From: Dehalococcoidia bacterium
Lineage (GTDB): Bacteria; Chloroflexota; Dehalococcoidia; Dehalococcoidales; Fen-1064
Length of the DNA: 34,905 bases
Reading direction: 5' to 3'
NCBI GenBank assembly: GCA_030691775.1
Contig: JAUYDN010000141.1
Location: forward strand, 1-34,905
A model generated the notes under the pieces. It was not told where the DNA came from and did not search any database. It worked only from the letters and a program-made list of their open reading frames with translations. Below, one piece after another: positions 9,353 to 27,931 of this stretch (its first letter is position 1; every line of letters begins with the position of its first letter). Made by a program: the position numbers and the translations under genes.

Positions 9353-10455
9353 TCGTCCTCGGTGCGGGCTTATACCGCTATGGCATCTACCCGGAAGTAC
9401 CTTATGTGGATATGGGCGTCACTGCCTGCCAGCGTGCGCTGGAAGATTCCGGCCTGGAGTGGCAGGACATCGAGGTGGGGTACTGCGCCAATACCAACCT
9501 GCCCAATGCCGCCGGGCATATCATCGCCGGGATGATGGGCGCCACCGGTATCACCATGACCAACGTAGAAAACGCCTCGGCGAGCGGTAATGCCGCCTTC
9601 CGCGAGGCTTATCTCGCCGTCGCCGCCGGTGCGCATGATGTCGCCATCGCCATCGGGGTGGACAAGTTACGCTCCTACCGGGAAACGACTTCATCTGAAG
9701 ATAAGCAACCGGTAGTCAAGGCGCCAATCAATACCGGGATGATGCGTGGTTTTGCCCAGCGCGCACGGGAACATATGGCAAGGTATGGCACCACCATCGA
9801 CCAGCTGGCGATGGTCTCCGTGAAAAGCCACCGTAACGCCAGCTTCAATCCCTACGCGCATTTCCAGACGCCGGTGACGCTGGAAGAGGTACATAGGGCG
9901 CGGATGGTCGCCGAGCCATTGACCGTGCTCCACTGCTGTCCATGGGACGAGGGTGGGGCGGCGGTCATTCTCTGCGCCGCCGAGATTGCACCACGCTTCA
10001 ATTCAAAGCCATGCCCCGGGGTGCTCGCTTCGGCATGCACGGGTTATACCGGTGCCGACCCGCTCGTCGAACTCACGCAGGTCACCGCATACAAAGCCTA
10101 TGAGATGGCAGGGCTGGGACCGGAAGACCTGGATATGGTGGAAGTGCACGACGCGGCGACAATCGAGGAAATACTGTACTACGAGGCACTGGGACTGTGC
10201 GCCATGGGCGAGGGCGGCAGGTTAATTGAGAGCGGAGCGACCGAGATTACGGGACGCATCCCGGTGAACAGCAGTGGGGGACTGATTTCCATGGGGCACC
10301 CCATCGGGCCGACAGGGCTGGGGCAACTCGCGGAGATTCTGTGGCAGATGCGCGGTCAAGCAGGCGAACGGCAGATAAATCAAAGCCCCAGAAACGGATT
10401 GGCACACATGGTGGGGGCAGGGGGTGTTTGTTTTATCCACATTCTGGGGCTTTGA
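9322..10455 (+). CDS. Thiolase-fold protein (SCP-x/lipid-transfer type) with Ser for the catalytic Cys
   Basis: 377 aa. It starts with GTG inside the end of comEC after GGGGAG. The fold is that of archaeal-type thiolases: VENASASGNAAFREA around residue 83-97, EVHDAAT with H276 in place of the NEAF motif, and SMGHPIGPTG with H326. The active-site loop normally reads ENACASG; here it is ENASASG, so the acyl-accepting Cys is S86. Classical thiolysis or Claisen condensation by acyl-Cys is therefore doubtful. Known thiolase-like aldolases such as Ltp2 also lack this Cys and need a DUF35 partner, but no DUF35 gene lies in the window. Function could be acyl-CoA or branched-lipid metabolism; only the family is secure. 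Confidence 0.85.
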   Translation: MGEKRPSREVVVLGAGLYRYGIYPEVPYVDMGVTACQRALEDSGLEWQDIEVGYCANTNLPNAAGHIIAGMMGATGITMTNVENASASGNAAFREAYLAVAAGAHDVAIAIGVDKLRSYRETTSSEDKQPVVKAPINTGMMRGFAQRAREHMARYGTTIDQLAMVSVKSHRNASFNPYAHFQTPVTLEEVHRARMVAEPLTVLHCCPWDEGGAAVILCAAEIAPRFNSKPCPGVLASACTGYTGADPLVELTQVTAYKAYEMAGLGPEDLDMVEVHDAATIEEILYYEALGLCAMGEGGRLIESGATEITGRIPVNSSGGLISMGHPIGPTGLGQLAEILWQMRGQAGERQINQSPRNGLAHMVGAGGVCFIHILGL

Positions 10456-23698: not shown

Positions 23699-24331
23699 CT
23701 AATCCCGGTACAACCCCTTCTCCCTGATATACCACTCCACCTCTTTCGGGACCATTTCCCCGATGGGCAGTCCTTCGCGCACCCGCTCGCGGATATCCGT
23801 GGCGCTGATGTTCACCAGCGGCATTTCAACAATGATGACGCGCTTTAGCAGACCGGGTATTTTTTCTTCGATAGCGGCGAGGTCGGGGAGGGAGGAGCCG
23901 GGGCGGGGCAGTGCCACCAGGCAAGCAAGCTCGATTATCCGCGGTGGGTTTTTCCAGCGCACCAGTTCCGGCAGGTTGTCCCATCCCATGATGAAATAGA
24001 ACTCAGCCCGTCCTCGGTACTCATAGTGGAGTGTTTCCAGCGTATCAACGGTGTAAGAGGGACCCGCCATATCAACTTCGATTGTGGATAGCCGGTAGCA
24101 CGGTTTCCGGGAGATGGCAAGGCGCACCATGGCGATACGGTGCGCGGCGGGTGTTATCGGCTTGGCGGCTTTCATCCATGGCTTACCCGCGGGCACAAAT
24201 ATAACATCGTCAAGCTCGAGCCGGCACCGGGTTTCTTCCGCGATTGCCAGGTGCCCGTTGTGCACCGGGTCGAACGTGCCCCCGAGCACCCCTACCTTTG
24301 TTTTCTCACCATTCCCACTCGGTGTCACCAC
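23699..24331 (-). CDS. nadD: Nicotinate-nucleotide adenylyltransferase
   Basis: Makes deamido-NAD from nicotinate mononucleotide and ATP. 210 aa with the nucleotidyltransferase motif GVLGGTFDPVHNGHLAIAEE, KPWMKAAKPITPAAHR, PSYTVDTLETL, FIMGWDNLPELVRW and the C-terminal ISATDIRERV. The GTG start at 24331 lies 26 bases inside the end of obgE in another frame, so translation is probably coupled. The N-terminus is about ten residues longer than usual; no better in-frame start with a ribosome site exists. Confidence 0.95.
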   Translation of the reverse strand: MVTPSGNGEKTKVGVLGGTFDPVHNGHLAIAEETRCRLELDDVIFVPAGKPWMKAAKPITPAAHRIAMVRLAISRKPCYRLSTIEVDMAGPSYTVDTLETLHYEYRGRAEFYFIMGWDNLPELVRWKNPPRIIELACLVALPRPGSSLPDLAAIEEKIPGLLKRVIIVEMPLVNISATDIRERVREGLPIGEMVPKEVEWYIREKGLYRD

Positions 24332-25559
24332 AGCGTATCTTGTCGCCTCCCTTGATTCCAGCGTTCTTCAACAGCCGCCCGATTCCCTTGCGTATCAGGA
24401 ACCCATGCACCTGCAAGCGGACGGTAGGGTTGGTTATATCTACCCGCGCCACCACCCTTTCGATGTCAAGAGCATAAACTACAAAAACGCTGTCTTCCTT
24501 ACTTACTTCAGCGGCAGGTCGTTTCGGCTGGGGTCTGAAGATTTTCGTTTCTTCATGTTTCTTTACAACCGCGTTCTTTTTCAACAGGTCGTTGATGGTC
24601 CTCACCAGTTCCTTCACGCCTGACCCTGTCAATGCCGATACAAACTGTACCGTAACACCTGCCGCATCGAACTCCTTTTTAAGCTCATTTATTTTCACGT
24701 GTACTTCAGGCAGGTCTATCTTGTTTATAGCGACCAACTGTGGTTTCTTTCCCAGCGATGGGTCGTAAAGAAACAGCTCGTTGTTCACCTTCACCATGTC
24801 TTCCACCGGTGATTGAGAAGCGCCATTGACGAGGTGTACGAAGACCCGCGTCCGGGTGCTGTGGCGGAGAAATTCATGTCCCAGCCCGCGCCCCTGGTGC
24901 GCCCCCTCGAGCAGGCCGGGAATCTCGGCGATTACGAAGGTCTCATCGCCGACTTCCACCACCCCGAGCTCGGGTTCCCTGGTGGTAAACGGATAATCGG
25001 CTATCTTGGGTTTAGCGGCAGATACAGCCGCAAGTAGCGAAGACTTGCCAACATTAGGATAGCCGATAATACCCACATCCGCAATCAACCGCAGTTCCAT
25101 GACCAATGTCTTCTGCTCGCCCTCTTCTCCCGCCTGGGCGAGCCGCGGGGTCTGGTTAGTGGACGTGGCATAGTGCACGTTACCCCAACCGCCTTTACCA
25201 CCCGTGGCAACTGTCACCCGGTCGCCGGGAGCGGTCAGGTCGACGAGATAGACCTGGCCCTCTTCGGTTACATCATAAACGATAGTGCCCAACGGCACTT
25301 TTATATCCAGGTCTGCACCATATTTGCCGAATTTCTTCTGCCTGGCTCCCGCAAGTCCGTCTCCTGCCAGGTACCAGCCTCCCGACCGGAACTCCTTAAA
25401 ACCGGTCACCGCCGGGTCAGCCACCAGAACAACATCTCCACCCTTCCCTCCATCTCCCCCATCCGGTCCGCCGAACGGAACGTACTTTTCCCGCCGGAAA
25501 GTGATGGCGCCATCCCCACCTTTGCCTCCACTAATTTTTATACGGACGATATCGAACAT
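24306..25559 (-). CDS. obgE: GTPase ObgE/CgtA
   Basis: Essential GTPase in 50S assembly and stress response. 417 aa with three domains: glycine-rich Obg fold (SGGKGGDGAITFRREKYVP, GGPDGGDGGKGGDV), G domain with P-loop GYPNVGKSS (166-173), switch YPFTTREPELG, DIPG-equivalent AEIPGLLEGAHQGRGLG and NKID, then a C-terminal OCT domain ending CGDTEWEW. Start ATG has GTGAGG upstream. A promoter with a leader of about 185 bases lies between it and dnaA. The nadD overlap suggests an obgE-nadD operon. Confidence 0.97.
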   Translation of the reverse strand: MFDIVRIKISGGKGGDGAITFRREKYVPFGGPDGGDGGKGGDVVLVADPAVTGFKEFRSGGWYLAGDGLAGARQKKFGKYGADLDIKVPLGTIVYDVTEEGQVYLVDLTAPGDRVTVATGGKGGWGNVHYATSTNQTPRLAQAGEEGEQKTLVMELRLIADVGIIGYPNVGKSSLLAAVSAAKPKIADYPFTTREPELGVVEVGDETFVIAEIPGLLEGAHQGRGLGHEFLRHSTRTRVFVHLVNGASQSPVEDMVKVNNELFLYDPSLGKKPQLVAINKIDLPEVHVKINELKKEFDAAGVTVQFVSALTGSGVKELVRTINDLLKKNAVVKKHEETKIFRPQPKRPAAEVSKEDSVFVVYALDIERVVARVDITNPTVRLQVHGFLIRKGIGRLLKNAGIKGGDKIRCGDTEWEW

Positions 25560-25914
25560 CTATTGCCTCACAATTTTCAATGCTTCCCGGATGTTCTCGG
25601 CTATCATCCGGTGCTTGCTCTTTTCAATAAAGAAATTCACAGCTTACTATCCTGTCAACTCTCAGCAAGTACCCCCCCCCTCTTTTTAAAGGTTAAATAA
25701 CTAGCTAACTCCTCTTGTTACTTCTTTTATTCTAAAGGATATGAGATATTATTTATACTAATGTCAGCGCACGCTCGTCAAACGTTGAACCTGGCTTGAA
25801 GATTTTGCCGCGGTGGGGTCGATGATTCTGCGGTCAGCGGGGGTTATCGAAAAGTGCCGTGGGTTATAAAAAAAAACGGGGTGGCGTTGAAAACGGACGG
25901 TGGGGATATAATCG
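25560..25914 (-). other. Long obgE leader and dnaA-obgE spacer
   Basis: 355 bases. It contains the obgE promoter, a run of nine G on the minus strand (25672-25680) in the obgE leader, and a T9 tract (25868-25876 region) downstream of dnaA without a convincing stem. AT-rich at 25685-25760. No ORF worth keeping. Confidence 0.5.
25752..25781 (-). promoter_or_regulatory. obgE promoter
   Basis: On the minus strand TTGACG, 18 bases, TATAAA. A perfect TTGACA also occurs nearer to obgE (about 25655) but lacks a good -10. Confidence 0.5.
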
Positions 25915-27231
25915 TTAAATGTTTCGTTGAGCGTGTAGTTTCTGCTGGATGTTGAACAGCTGTCGCCGCAGGTGCGGGTCGTTGTTGAGAGACTCGGTTA
26001 TTTTTCCACAGGCGTAGCTGATGGTTGCGGGACTGCGCCCGCCCAGTTGTCTGCCGATGTCTGCCAGTGAACACTCTGTCTCCTCGCGCATAAGGTACAT
26101 TGCCGCCTGGCGGGCGGTTGCGGTGGTGTCATCCCGGCGTCTGCCCCTGAGGTCGGAAAGGGAGACCTGGAATGCTCCAGCGACCATCTCCACGATAAGC
26201 TCTAGGGTAACCGGCGGCAACCGTGGTTGTTTGCTGGCGATATCATCGATGGCGCGTGCCGCCATGTCCGGGGTAATGGCGGTACGGAGGAGTTTAGCAT
26301 ATGCAATAACACGGTTCAAGGCACCTTCCAGCGCCCGTATGTTCTCTTTTATCTGCAGAGCGATGAATTCCAGCACTTCCGCAGTAACGTCAACGCGTTC
26401 TCGTTCTGCCTTTGCCTTGAGTACGTTGAGTCGTGTTTCAAAATCGGGTGGCTGGAGGTCGGCTACCAGCCCCCACTCCAGGCGGCTACGTAAGCGTTCC
26501 TTGAGGGCTGGTAAAGCTTGCGGTACGCGGTCACTGGTGACGACAATCTGGTGGTTAGCGGCGTGGAGTTCGTTGAAGGTGTGGAAGAAATTCTCTTCGG
26601 TCTGTTCCTTGCCCCCGAAAAACTGGACGTCATCCAGCAGGAGGATATCGACCGTGCGGAACTTGCGGCGGAAATCGTCCGTGGTCTTTTCGCGGATGGA
26701 GGTGACCAGCTCGTTGGTGTACTGTTCCGCGCTGACGCAAAGCACGTGAAAGTTTCTTGTAATCGCATAGTTGCCAATGGCGTGGAGCAGGTGGGTCTTG
26801 CCGAGACCGGAGCCGCCGTGGAGATAGAGCGGGTTGAAGTTCTGCCCCGGATTTTCCGCAACTTTAGTTGCGGCGGCAAAGGCGAGGTTGTTGGAATTTC
26901 CCACGATGAAAGAATCGAATGTATATCGGGGGTTGAAGAGGGGTAAAGGCGTTCGGTCGCTAATGATTCTGGCGCCGGCATCGGCGACACGGAATTCCAA
27001 CCGGACATTATCGCGGAGGATACCGGTTAATACTCTCTCAATCAGACTGCGCTGGTTTTTTTCCAGGTATTCGGCGATAAAGGTGTTGGGCACGCCGATT
27101 TCGAATCGCCCGTCCCGGAAGTCGATACCGGTAGTCTTTTTAAACCAGGTAGCGAAATTCGCTTTATTTACTTCAACCTGAAGCTGGCCCAGAGCGGTTT
27201 CCCAGATTTCCTGGGCAGACCGTAGTTTCAT
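25915..27231 (-). CDS. dnaA: Chromosomal replication initiator DnaA
   Basis: 438 aa. Domain I is IWETALGQLQVEVNKANFATWFKKT; domain II is very short; domain III (AAA+) starts at NPRYTFDSFIVGNSNNLAFAAA, with Walker A GGSGLGKTHLL, Walker B ILLLDDVQFF, sensor I IVVTSDRVPQ and the arginine-finger region LRSRLEWGL. Domain IV has the helix-turn-helix with SLADIGRQLGGRSPATISYAC. In most bacteria this signature reads GGRDHTTVLHAC; here the DHT trio that reads the DnaA box is S400-P401-A402. The ATPase is intact, so it should be an initiator, but with different DNA reading. The ribosome site before ATG 27231 is weak (AGGATT). The genes that follow on this strand are obgE and nadD; dnaN is absent. Confidence 0.97.
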   Translation of the reverse strand: MKLRSAQEIWETALGQLQVEVNKANFATWFKKTTGIDFRDGRFEIGVPNTFIAEYLEKNQRSLIERVLTGILRDNVRLEFRVADAGARIISDRTPLPLFNPRYTFDSFIVGNSNNLAFAAATKVAENPGQNFNPLYLHGGSGLGKTHLLHAIGNYAITRNFHVLCVSAEQYTNELVTSIREKTTDDFRRKFRTVDILLLDDVQFFGGKEQTEENFFHTFNELHAANHQIVVTSDRVPQALPALKERLRSRLEWGLVADLQPPDFETRLNVLKAKAERERVDVTAEVLEFIALQIKENIRALEGALNRVIAYAKLLRTAITPDMAARAIDDIASKQPRLPPVTLELIVEMVAGAFQVSLSDLRGRRRDDTTATARQAAMYLMREETECSLADIGRQLGGRSPATISYACGKITESLNNDPHLRRQLFNIQQKLHAQRNI

Positions 27232-27696
27232 GTGTTAGAATCCTAAATCCAAGCCATAAACCCCCACAGACACAAAAATACCTACCCCACAGCTTTACGG
27301 CCTGGTGAAAATTACTTGCGGTTCTGGTGAGAACAAGCAACGATATTAAGGATAATCCCCTTTGCTACAGGAAAGCAAAGGCTCTGGCAATTACTTCTGG
27401 TAGTTTTTGACGTTAAAAAACTCGTTCGTTCTTAAGCGAACGCTCTGTCAGACTTCACCTTTTACCACTTCTCTCCTTGCCAGATTGAGTATGCCAGACG
27501 GCTTTGAAAAGTCAATTGCGAGCCTTTCTGTCACGGTTTTATGTGGTACTTACAGTACCAGACCGATACTATCTACTGTAGTGTCTCCGAAATAACCTGA
27601 CAATTACACATGGAGTGTGGTGCCACGGACGAAATATGAAAATGATGGTTGCAAAGGGTGGGAAAGCAAGATGACTGCCAGCTTGCACAAGGGAGT

Positions 27697-27755
27697 TGAG
27701 AGGGGCTGACGCCCCTCTCAAAATAGTTCTTCCCCTTCTCCGCAGAGAAGGGGCA
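27697..27755. repeat. Two adjacent strong hairpins
   Basis: TTGAGAGGGGC-TGAC-GCCCCTCTCAA (11-bp perfect stem) followed shortly by CCCCTTCTC-CGCA-GAGAAGGGG (9-bp perfect stem). Neither has a T-run. The second resembles intergenic repeats of the CCCCTTCTC type. Confidence 0.75.
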
Positions 27756-27881
27756 AGGGGATGAGGCGCTGTGTAAGAACGGGCATCTTTTATTCAGAAT
27801 TGTAAAGCTGTTATTGAGACACTCCACTACTTTAACTCCAAAGTCATGCAGTACAATTTTGTTTATCATCAGGAAAGAATA

Positions 27882-27910
27882 TTGTTAGGTTACCCTCCAG
27901 ATGATAAAAT
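27882..27910 (+). promoter_or_regulatory. fmt promoter
   Basis: TTGTTA, 17 bases, TAAAAT; the predicted start is about 15 bases before the ATG and the leader contains GGAGG. Confidence 0.5.
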
Positions 27911-27931
27911 GCGGTTAGCTGGAGGCAGTTA

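Follow-up and report, generated by a model that had tools for sequence, protein, structure and literature searches.

In E. coli, domain IV of the replication initiator DnaA binds the TTATCCACA box (1J1V) with a recognition helix (residues 434-451) that reads 5'-TnCACA-3' in the major groove, and with Arg399, which reads 5'-TTA-3' in the minor groove (PMC5742627); the base-specific contacts are those of residues 399, 423, 432-435 and 438-439 (PMC5043019). In the Epsilonproteobacteria, whose boxes contain TTCAC, a clade-specific shift of the box goes with residue changes in helix 5 (PMC5043019), as in the case reported here, but in these bacteria both the D-H dyad and the CAC core persist, as they do not in our locus. 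The DnaA of Thermotoga maritima, with its 12-mer box, also has a divergent helix (SHPVVV), but that box is a different one. The basal unwinding system of B. subtilis has, beside dnaA, head-to-tail boxes with a TAG/TAN repeat behind them (8BTG, PMC8287927). As to the box itself, Ori-Finder listed TTATCGAAA in 2008 as the proposed DnaA box of Dehalococcoides (PMC2275245), an in silico proposal within the same order and for the same nonamer as found below, so that the deviant box is not new. That proposal concerned one genus, came without a link to DnaA residues, without the 20-bp tandem geometry and without a survey of the order, and the genome studied here belongs to another family.

The window (the whole stretch of DNA analysed, 34,905 nucleotides) holds the following genes and protein features:

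25915-27231, minus strand: dnaA, chromosomal replication initiator, 438 aa, the genome's sole copy
26008-26043, minus strand: altered start of the recognition helix, GGRSPATISYAC, from alignment to E. coli domain IV and the structural model
26134-26136, minus strand: R366, equivalent of E. coli Arg399, the minor-groove arginine reading TTA; position computed from the dnaA start
24306-25559, minus strand: obg (GTPase ObgE/CgtA), from profile evidence; bounds the candidate oriC

The initial annotation had described the DnaA domains outside the recognition helix as normal, and they are. The TIGR00362 equivalog matches the protein over its full length with 473.9 bits, above the cut-off of 343.9 for membership, and the Pfam domains DnaA_N, Bac_DnaA and Bac_DnaA_C (domain I, the AAA+ domain III and the helix-turn-helix domain IV) are all matched, the DnaA C-terminal domain occurring a single time in the 2.26 Mb genome. 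The AlphaFold model has a mean pLDDT of 82.9, mostly 85-92 in domain IV, where its helices span residues 343-437 and the helix-turn-helix is intact; the closest PDB structure is 8btg, B. subtilis DnaA on its origin.

It is at the start of the recognition helix that the protein departs from E. coli. An altered signature had been placed at 25966-26090, a range that encloses 26008-26043, with D433, H434 and T435 replaced by S400, P401 and A402, and the alignment to E. coli domain IV (1J1V) recovers exactly these positions, together with S405 and Y406 in place of L438 and H439. P423 differs as well, whilst the equivalents of E. coli R399 and R432 (the latter being R399 of the window) are retained. 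The canonical triad D-H-T/S at 433-435, here S-P-A, is a trait of most DnaA and does not define DnaA as a whole. In the model the recognition helix comprises residues 401-417, with P401 as its first helical residue and S400 directly ahead of it. Both are, in general, tolerable positions for these residues.

A DnaA was found in 151 of the order's 156 genomes, for most of which we also examined the dnaA locus. The alignment of relatives that the initial annotation had called for gives RSPAT, RSPST or RSSST in all 13 usable members of the window's family; family f104 has RSPAT, RTPAT or RSAAT, and elsewhere in the order we see RNPST, RNAST, RSAST (Dehalococcoides-like), RTAAT/RAAAT/RSAAT (Dehalogenimonas-like), RDAxx/RDPSx and REPIT/RQPIx. 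His434 is retained in 11 families of the order, and the other Chloroflexota examined retain it too (R/K/N, D/N, H). Across the clade the changes at helix positions 433, 434 and 438 occur jointly, while the minor-groove arginine (E. coli R399) was kept, being R, rarely K, in every locus checked. From the dnaA-first layout and the matching box we infer that L112, L113 and L116 (RSAST) are of Dehalococcoides type, and the genus labels Dehalococcoides and Dehalogenimonas are likewise our own assignments of the relatives' loci. Parsimony on the order tree gives 8 switches, but its backbone is weak and the supported branches yield 1 independent pair only; independent switches are therefore not countable with support, and a sister-pair test was dropped for having too few supported pairs.

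The DNA next to the gene has changed as well. The relevant features of the window are:

25560-25914, no strand: dnaA-obg intergenic region, proposed oriC, from the cumulative GC skew minimum
25844-25852, plus strand: candidate DnaA box 1, TTATCGAAA (GGTTATCGAAAAG), from the tandem pattern, covariation and alignment of relatives
25864-25872, plus strand: candidate DnaA box 2, TTATAAAAA, a variant of TTATCGAAA in the same orientation, 20 bp from box 1
25738-25763, minus strand: AT-rich TAG/TAN run (TTAGTATAAATAATATC), candidate DnaA-trio/unwinding element, weaker than in relatives

As had been remarked from the letters alone, the surroundings of the gene lack the consensus box: there is no TTATCCACA with 0-1 mismatch in 25560-25914 or 27232-27931, hence no canonical-box origin in these flanks, and the window's one exact copy lies at 10433. 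The two boxes at 25844-25872, which the initial annotation did not mention, are one exact and one variant copy of TTATCGAAA. Exact TTATCGAAA is not enriched genome-wide, its counts being near those of the reversed word, so that a single box carries little signal and it is the tandem that does: TTTNNATAAS-N10-TTTNNATAA has a single match in the 2.26 Mb genome, at this place, 42 bp past dnaA. The order as a whole yields 27 matches, of which 16 lie no more than 150 bp 3' of dnaA, whereas the reversed control pattern yields 2; G013, G049 and G098 have the same tandem. In an alignment of eight relatives the two boxes hold most of the invariant columns. In two further genomes (G301:C5:11714-11742 and G302:C2:21933-21961), TTTGCATAAC...TTTTGATAA is found in tandem some 3 kb upstream of dnaA and not 3' of it.

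B. subtilis, too, has head-to-tail boxes and then a TAG/TAN repeat next to dnaA, but the box here is different and the gap to the TAN repeat is about 80-100 bp as opposed to at most 16 bp; the basal-unwinding criterion asks for three or more NAN trinucleotides no farther than 16 bp from a DnaA box. By strict search the window contains no run of four TAN, and in relatives the stretch reads plain TAGTATTAGTAATAAT, which resembles DnaA-trios. Between the boxes and the TAN repeat many members of the order (e.g., L132, L133, L142) conserve a AATTTTAACC / AAATTTAAAGTTC element. Just upstream of dnaA, at 27245-27290, the minus strand of the window carries two TGTGGGG repeats (TGTGGGGGTTTATGG and TGTGGGGTAGG), possibly regulatory and absent from the nearest relative L126. 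GTGGGG (CCCCAC) was considered as the new box and rejected, its copies near dnaA being neither phased nor conserved, and later scans favoured TTATCRAAA.

Whether helix and box vary together can be read from the dnaA-obg intergenic DNA of the usable loci of the order, 70 without D433 and H434 and 22 keeping His434. The standard core TTATCCAC/TATCCACA (TTATCCACA) is present in 13 of the 22 His434-keeping loci and in 1 of the 70 D433/H434-less ones (Fisher p 3e-9), while TTATC(G/A)AAA is found in none of the former and 30 of the latter (Fisher p 5e-5). Since relatedness inflates these locus-level values, we also counted by family, which gives p 0.026 for the standard core and 0.005 for TTATCRAAA. 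Neither association is complete: 9 of the 22 His loci miss the standard core in this region, and no more than 30 of the 70 others have the exact TTATCRAAA. The His434-keeping loci often carry TTGTGGATAAC, i.e., TTATCCACA, and the D433/H434-less loci carry TTT(T/C)GATAAC(T), which is GTTATC(G/A)AAA(A), in head-to-tail copies. In the complete genome G240 (L132, RSPAT DnaA), CTATCCACA, one mismatch from the standard box, is seen just after the dnaA stop.

De novo motif search by EM was swamped, first by glycine codons in obg and afterwards by base composition and the TAN repeat, and enumeration, fixed-spacing and autocorrelation tests were therefore used. The spacings of TTATCRAAA-type units peak at 20, 21 and 41 bp, and a motif-free repeat scan recovers 20 and 41 bp. 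Pairs of TTNNATAA at 19-22 bp number 36 in the 70 His-less regions, where shuffles give 0.06 on average and 1 at most, and there are 0 in the His loci. Two His-keeping relatives (L174 and L183) have TGTGGATAAC-type units at the same 20/41 bp spacing. Because the standard-type units share this spacing, it seems that the array persisted while each box changed in one half. In the Dehalogenimonas-like loci (L114, L115, L118, L119, L123, L233 and L234, genus g3 of family f2), where dnaA does not adjoin obg, no phased box array was found beside dnaA, and their oriC is probably elsewhere.

Other helices go with other repeats. Family f101 has kept the Asp and lost the His, with Arg instead of Gln at 408, A or S at 436 and mostly N at 439, and its dnaA-obg region shows TTTTGTG-like repeats at 11 and 22 bp in place of TTATC boxes (L157, L172, L176, L177, L185, L193, L218, L226 and others, with RDAxx/RDPSx); these helices and the TTTTG(T)G repeats could possibly form a separate initiator code with one-turn spacing. 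Where the helix is E/Q-P-I, the repeats are CTATAA units spaced by about 11 and 21 bp (8 pairs against 0.09 in shuffles), and CTATAA-type triplets occur in the REPIT/RQAIT loci L141, L155, L163 and L196. Close relatives can differ in both partners, as they do within families f85, f95 and f99: L150 and L163 are 91% identical in domains I-III, and whilst the first has the helix RNPAT with TTTTGCA/TTTTAATAAG units, the second has REPIT with CTATAA. The TTTTGTG and CTATAA sets are small, and we are less sure of their boxes as codes. On balance we lean towards the view that the DnaA/box code, nearly universal otherwise, gave way within this one order, and more than once, to three or more other codes, with close relatives switching helix and boxes together. 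The candidates are the loss of D433/H434 with GTTATC(G/A)AAAA at 20/41 bp, D-A/P helices paired with TTTTGTG-like repeats at 11/22 bp, and CTATAA at about 11/21 bp alongside E/Q-P-I helices.

For the window we regard it as highly probable, judging from sequence comparison, that its DnaA, in other respects an ordinary initiator of four domains, has had the specificity of domain IV rewritten and would bind boxes of the TTATCRAAA type in an oriC situated between dnaA and obg. Arg366 would lie in the minor groove of TTA, and the recognition helix from Ser400 onwards over the RAAA half of the box; two DnaA protomers would sit on the same face of the DNA helix, two turns apart, and the filament would extend toward the TAG/TAN-rich stretch some 100 bp off, which it would open in much the manner of B. 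subtilis basal unwinding. DnaA and boxes would have departed jointly from the TTATCCACA state, which survives in other families of the order, and the domain IV of the window would be expected to prefer GTTATCGAAAA over TTATCCACA. The arginine that reads TTA (E. coli R399) is kept and so is TTAT, and the helix that reads TnCACA is changed and so is CACA, which became RAAA; this apparent match between residues and box halves is, in our judgement, the strongest mechanistic point.

Of the other explanations, the one that survives best, unlikely as it seems, is that the phased TTTTNGATAAC repeats are bound by another protein (e.g., a regulator of dnaA or obg), the RSPAT DnaA having lost its specificity or binding AT-rich DNA loosely. 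The repeats are indeed AT-rich and could be the sites of such a regulator, and the loss of a base-reading His could relax specificity. The same repeats, however, stand where His-keeping relatives have their standard boxes, and at the same spacing; they retain TTAT, the half read by the conserved arginine, and vary along with the DnaA residues in three distinct ways, even between relatives as close as L150 and L163.

It is more improbable still that DnaA goes on reading TTATCCACA, with a neutral residue change and functional standard boxes elsewhere in the genome. Exact TTATCCACA has 28 copies there, against 10 for the reversed control word, and in some bacteria oriC does lie away from dnaA; but the copies are scattered, with none less than 15 kb from dnaA on its contig, the cumulative GC skew of the window is minimal at about 25.5 kb, at the dnaA-obg intergenic region, and it is at exactly this place that His434-keeping relatives have the standard box. 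For the complete relative G240, genome-wide GC skew taken at 20 places fluctuated too much to locate the origin, and a skew jump between dnaA and obg, seen in 69 of 69 loci, was left unused, being confounded by the Gly-rich obg gene. A sequencing error, which the initial annotation had named as what would undo its reading, is excluded, and an assembly error or a non-functional dnaA copy can likewise be dismissed even for a draft assembly of 276 contigs, because the signature is common to the whole family and found in others, and the frame of this only dnaA and its fold model are intact. The initial proposal that the initiator reads a different box is thus favoured by the covariation of protein and box across the order, although that the change is common to most of the order was no part of it.

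The link between the box and DnaA residues was not found in the literature on the nonamer, on Dehalococcoides origins or on initiator-box coevolution, a weak negative with subscription papers mostly outside its coverage, nor were the order-wide spread and the TTTTGTG and CTATAA codes in the literature searched. Beyond a deviant box known for one genus, the new points appear to be the tie to DnaA residues, the tandem arrangement, the distribution across the order and the further candidate codes.

The initiator and its box are an essential pair, usually constant across most of the bacterial domain. An order with co-varying partners, intermediate and sister states is a natural mutational series for the change of an essential protein-DNA code, and it offers a recognition table of residues 433, 434, 435 and 438 against box positions 6 to 9. 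The proposed rewriting also explains why a search for TTATCCACA by origin finders would overlook oriC in most uncultured Dehalococcoidales, for which the tandem-box search pattern is one that finds it.
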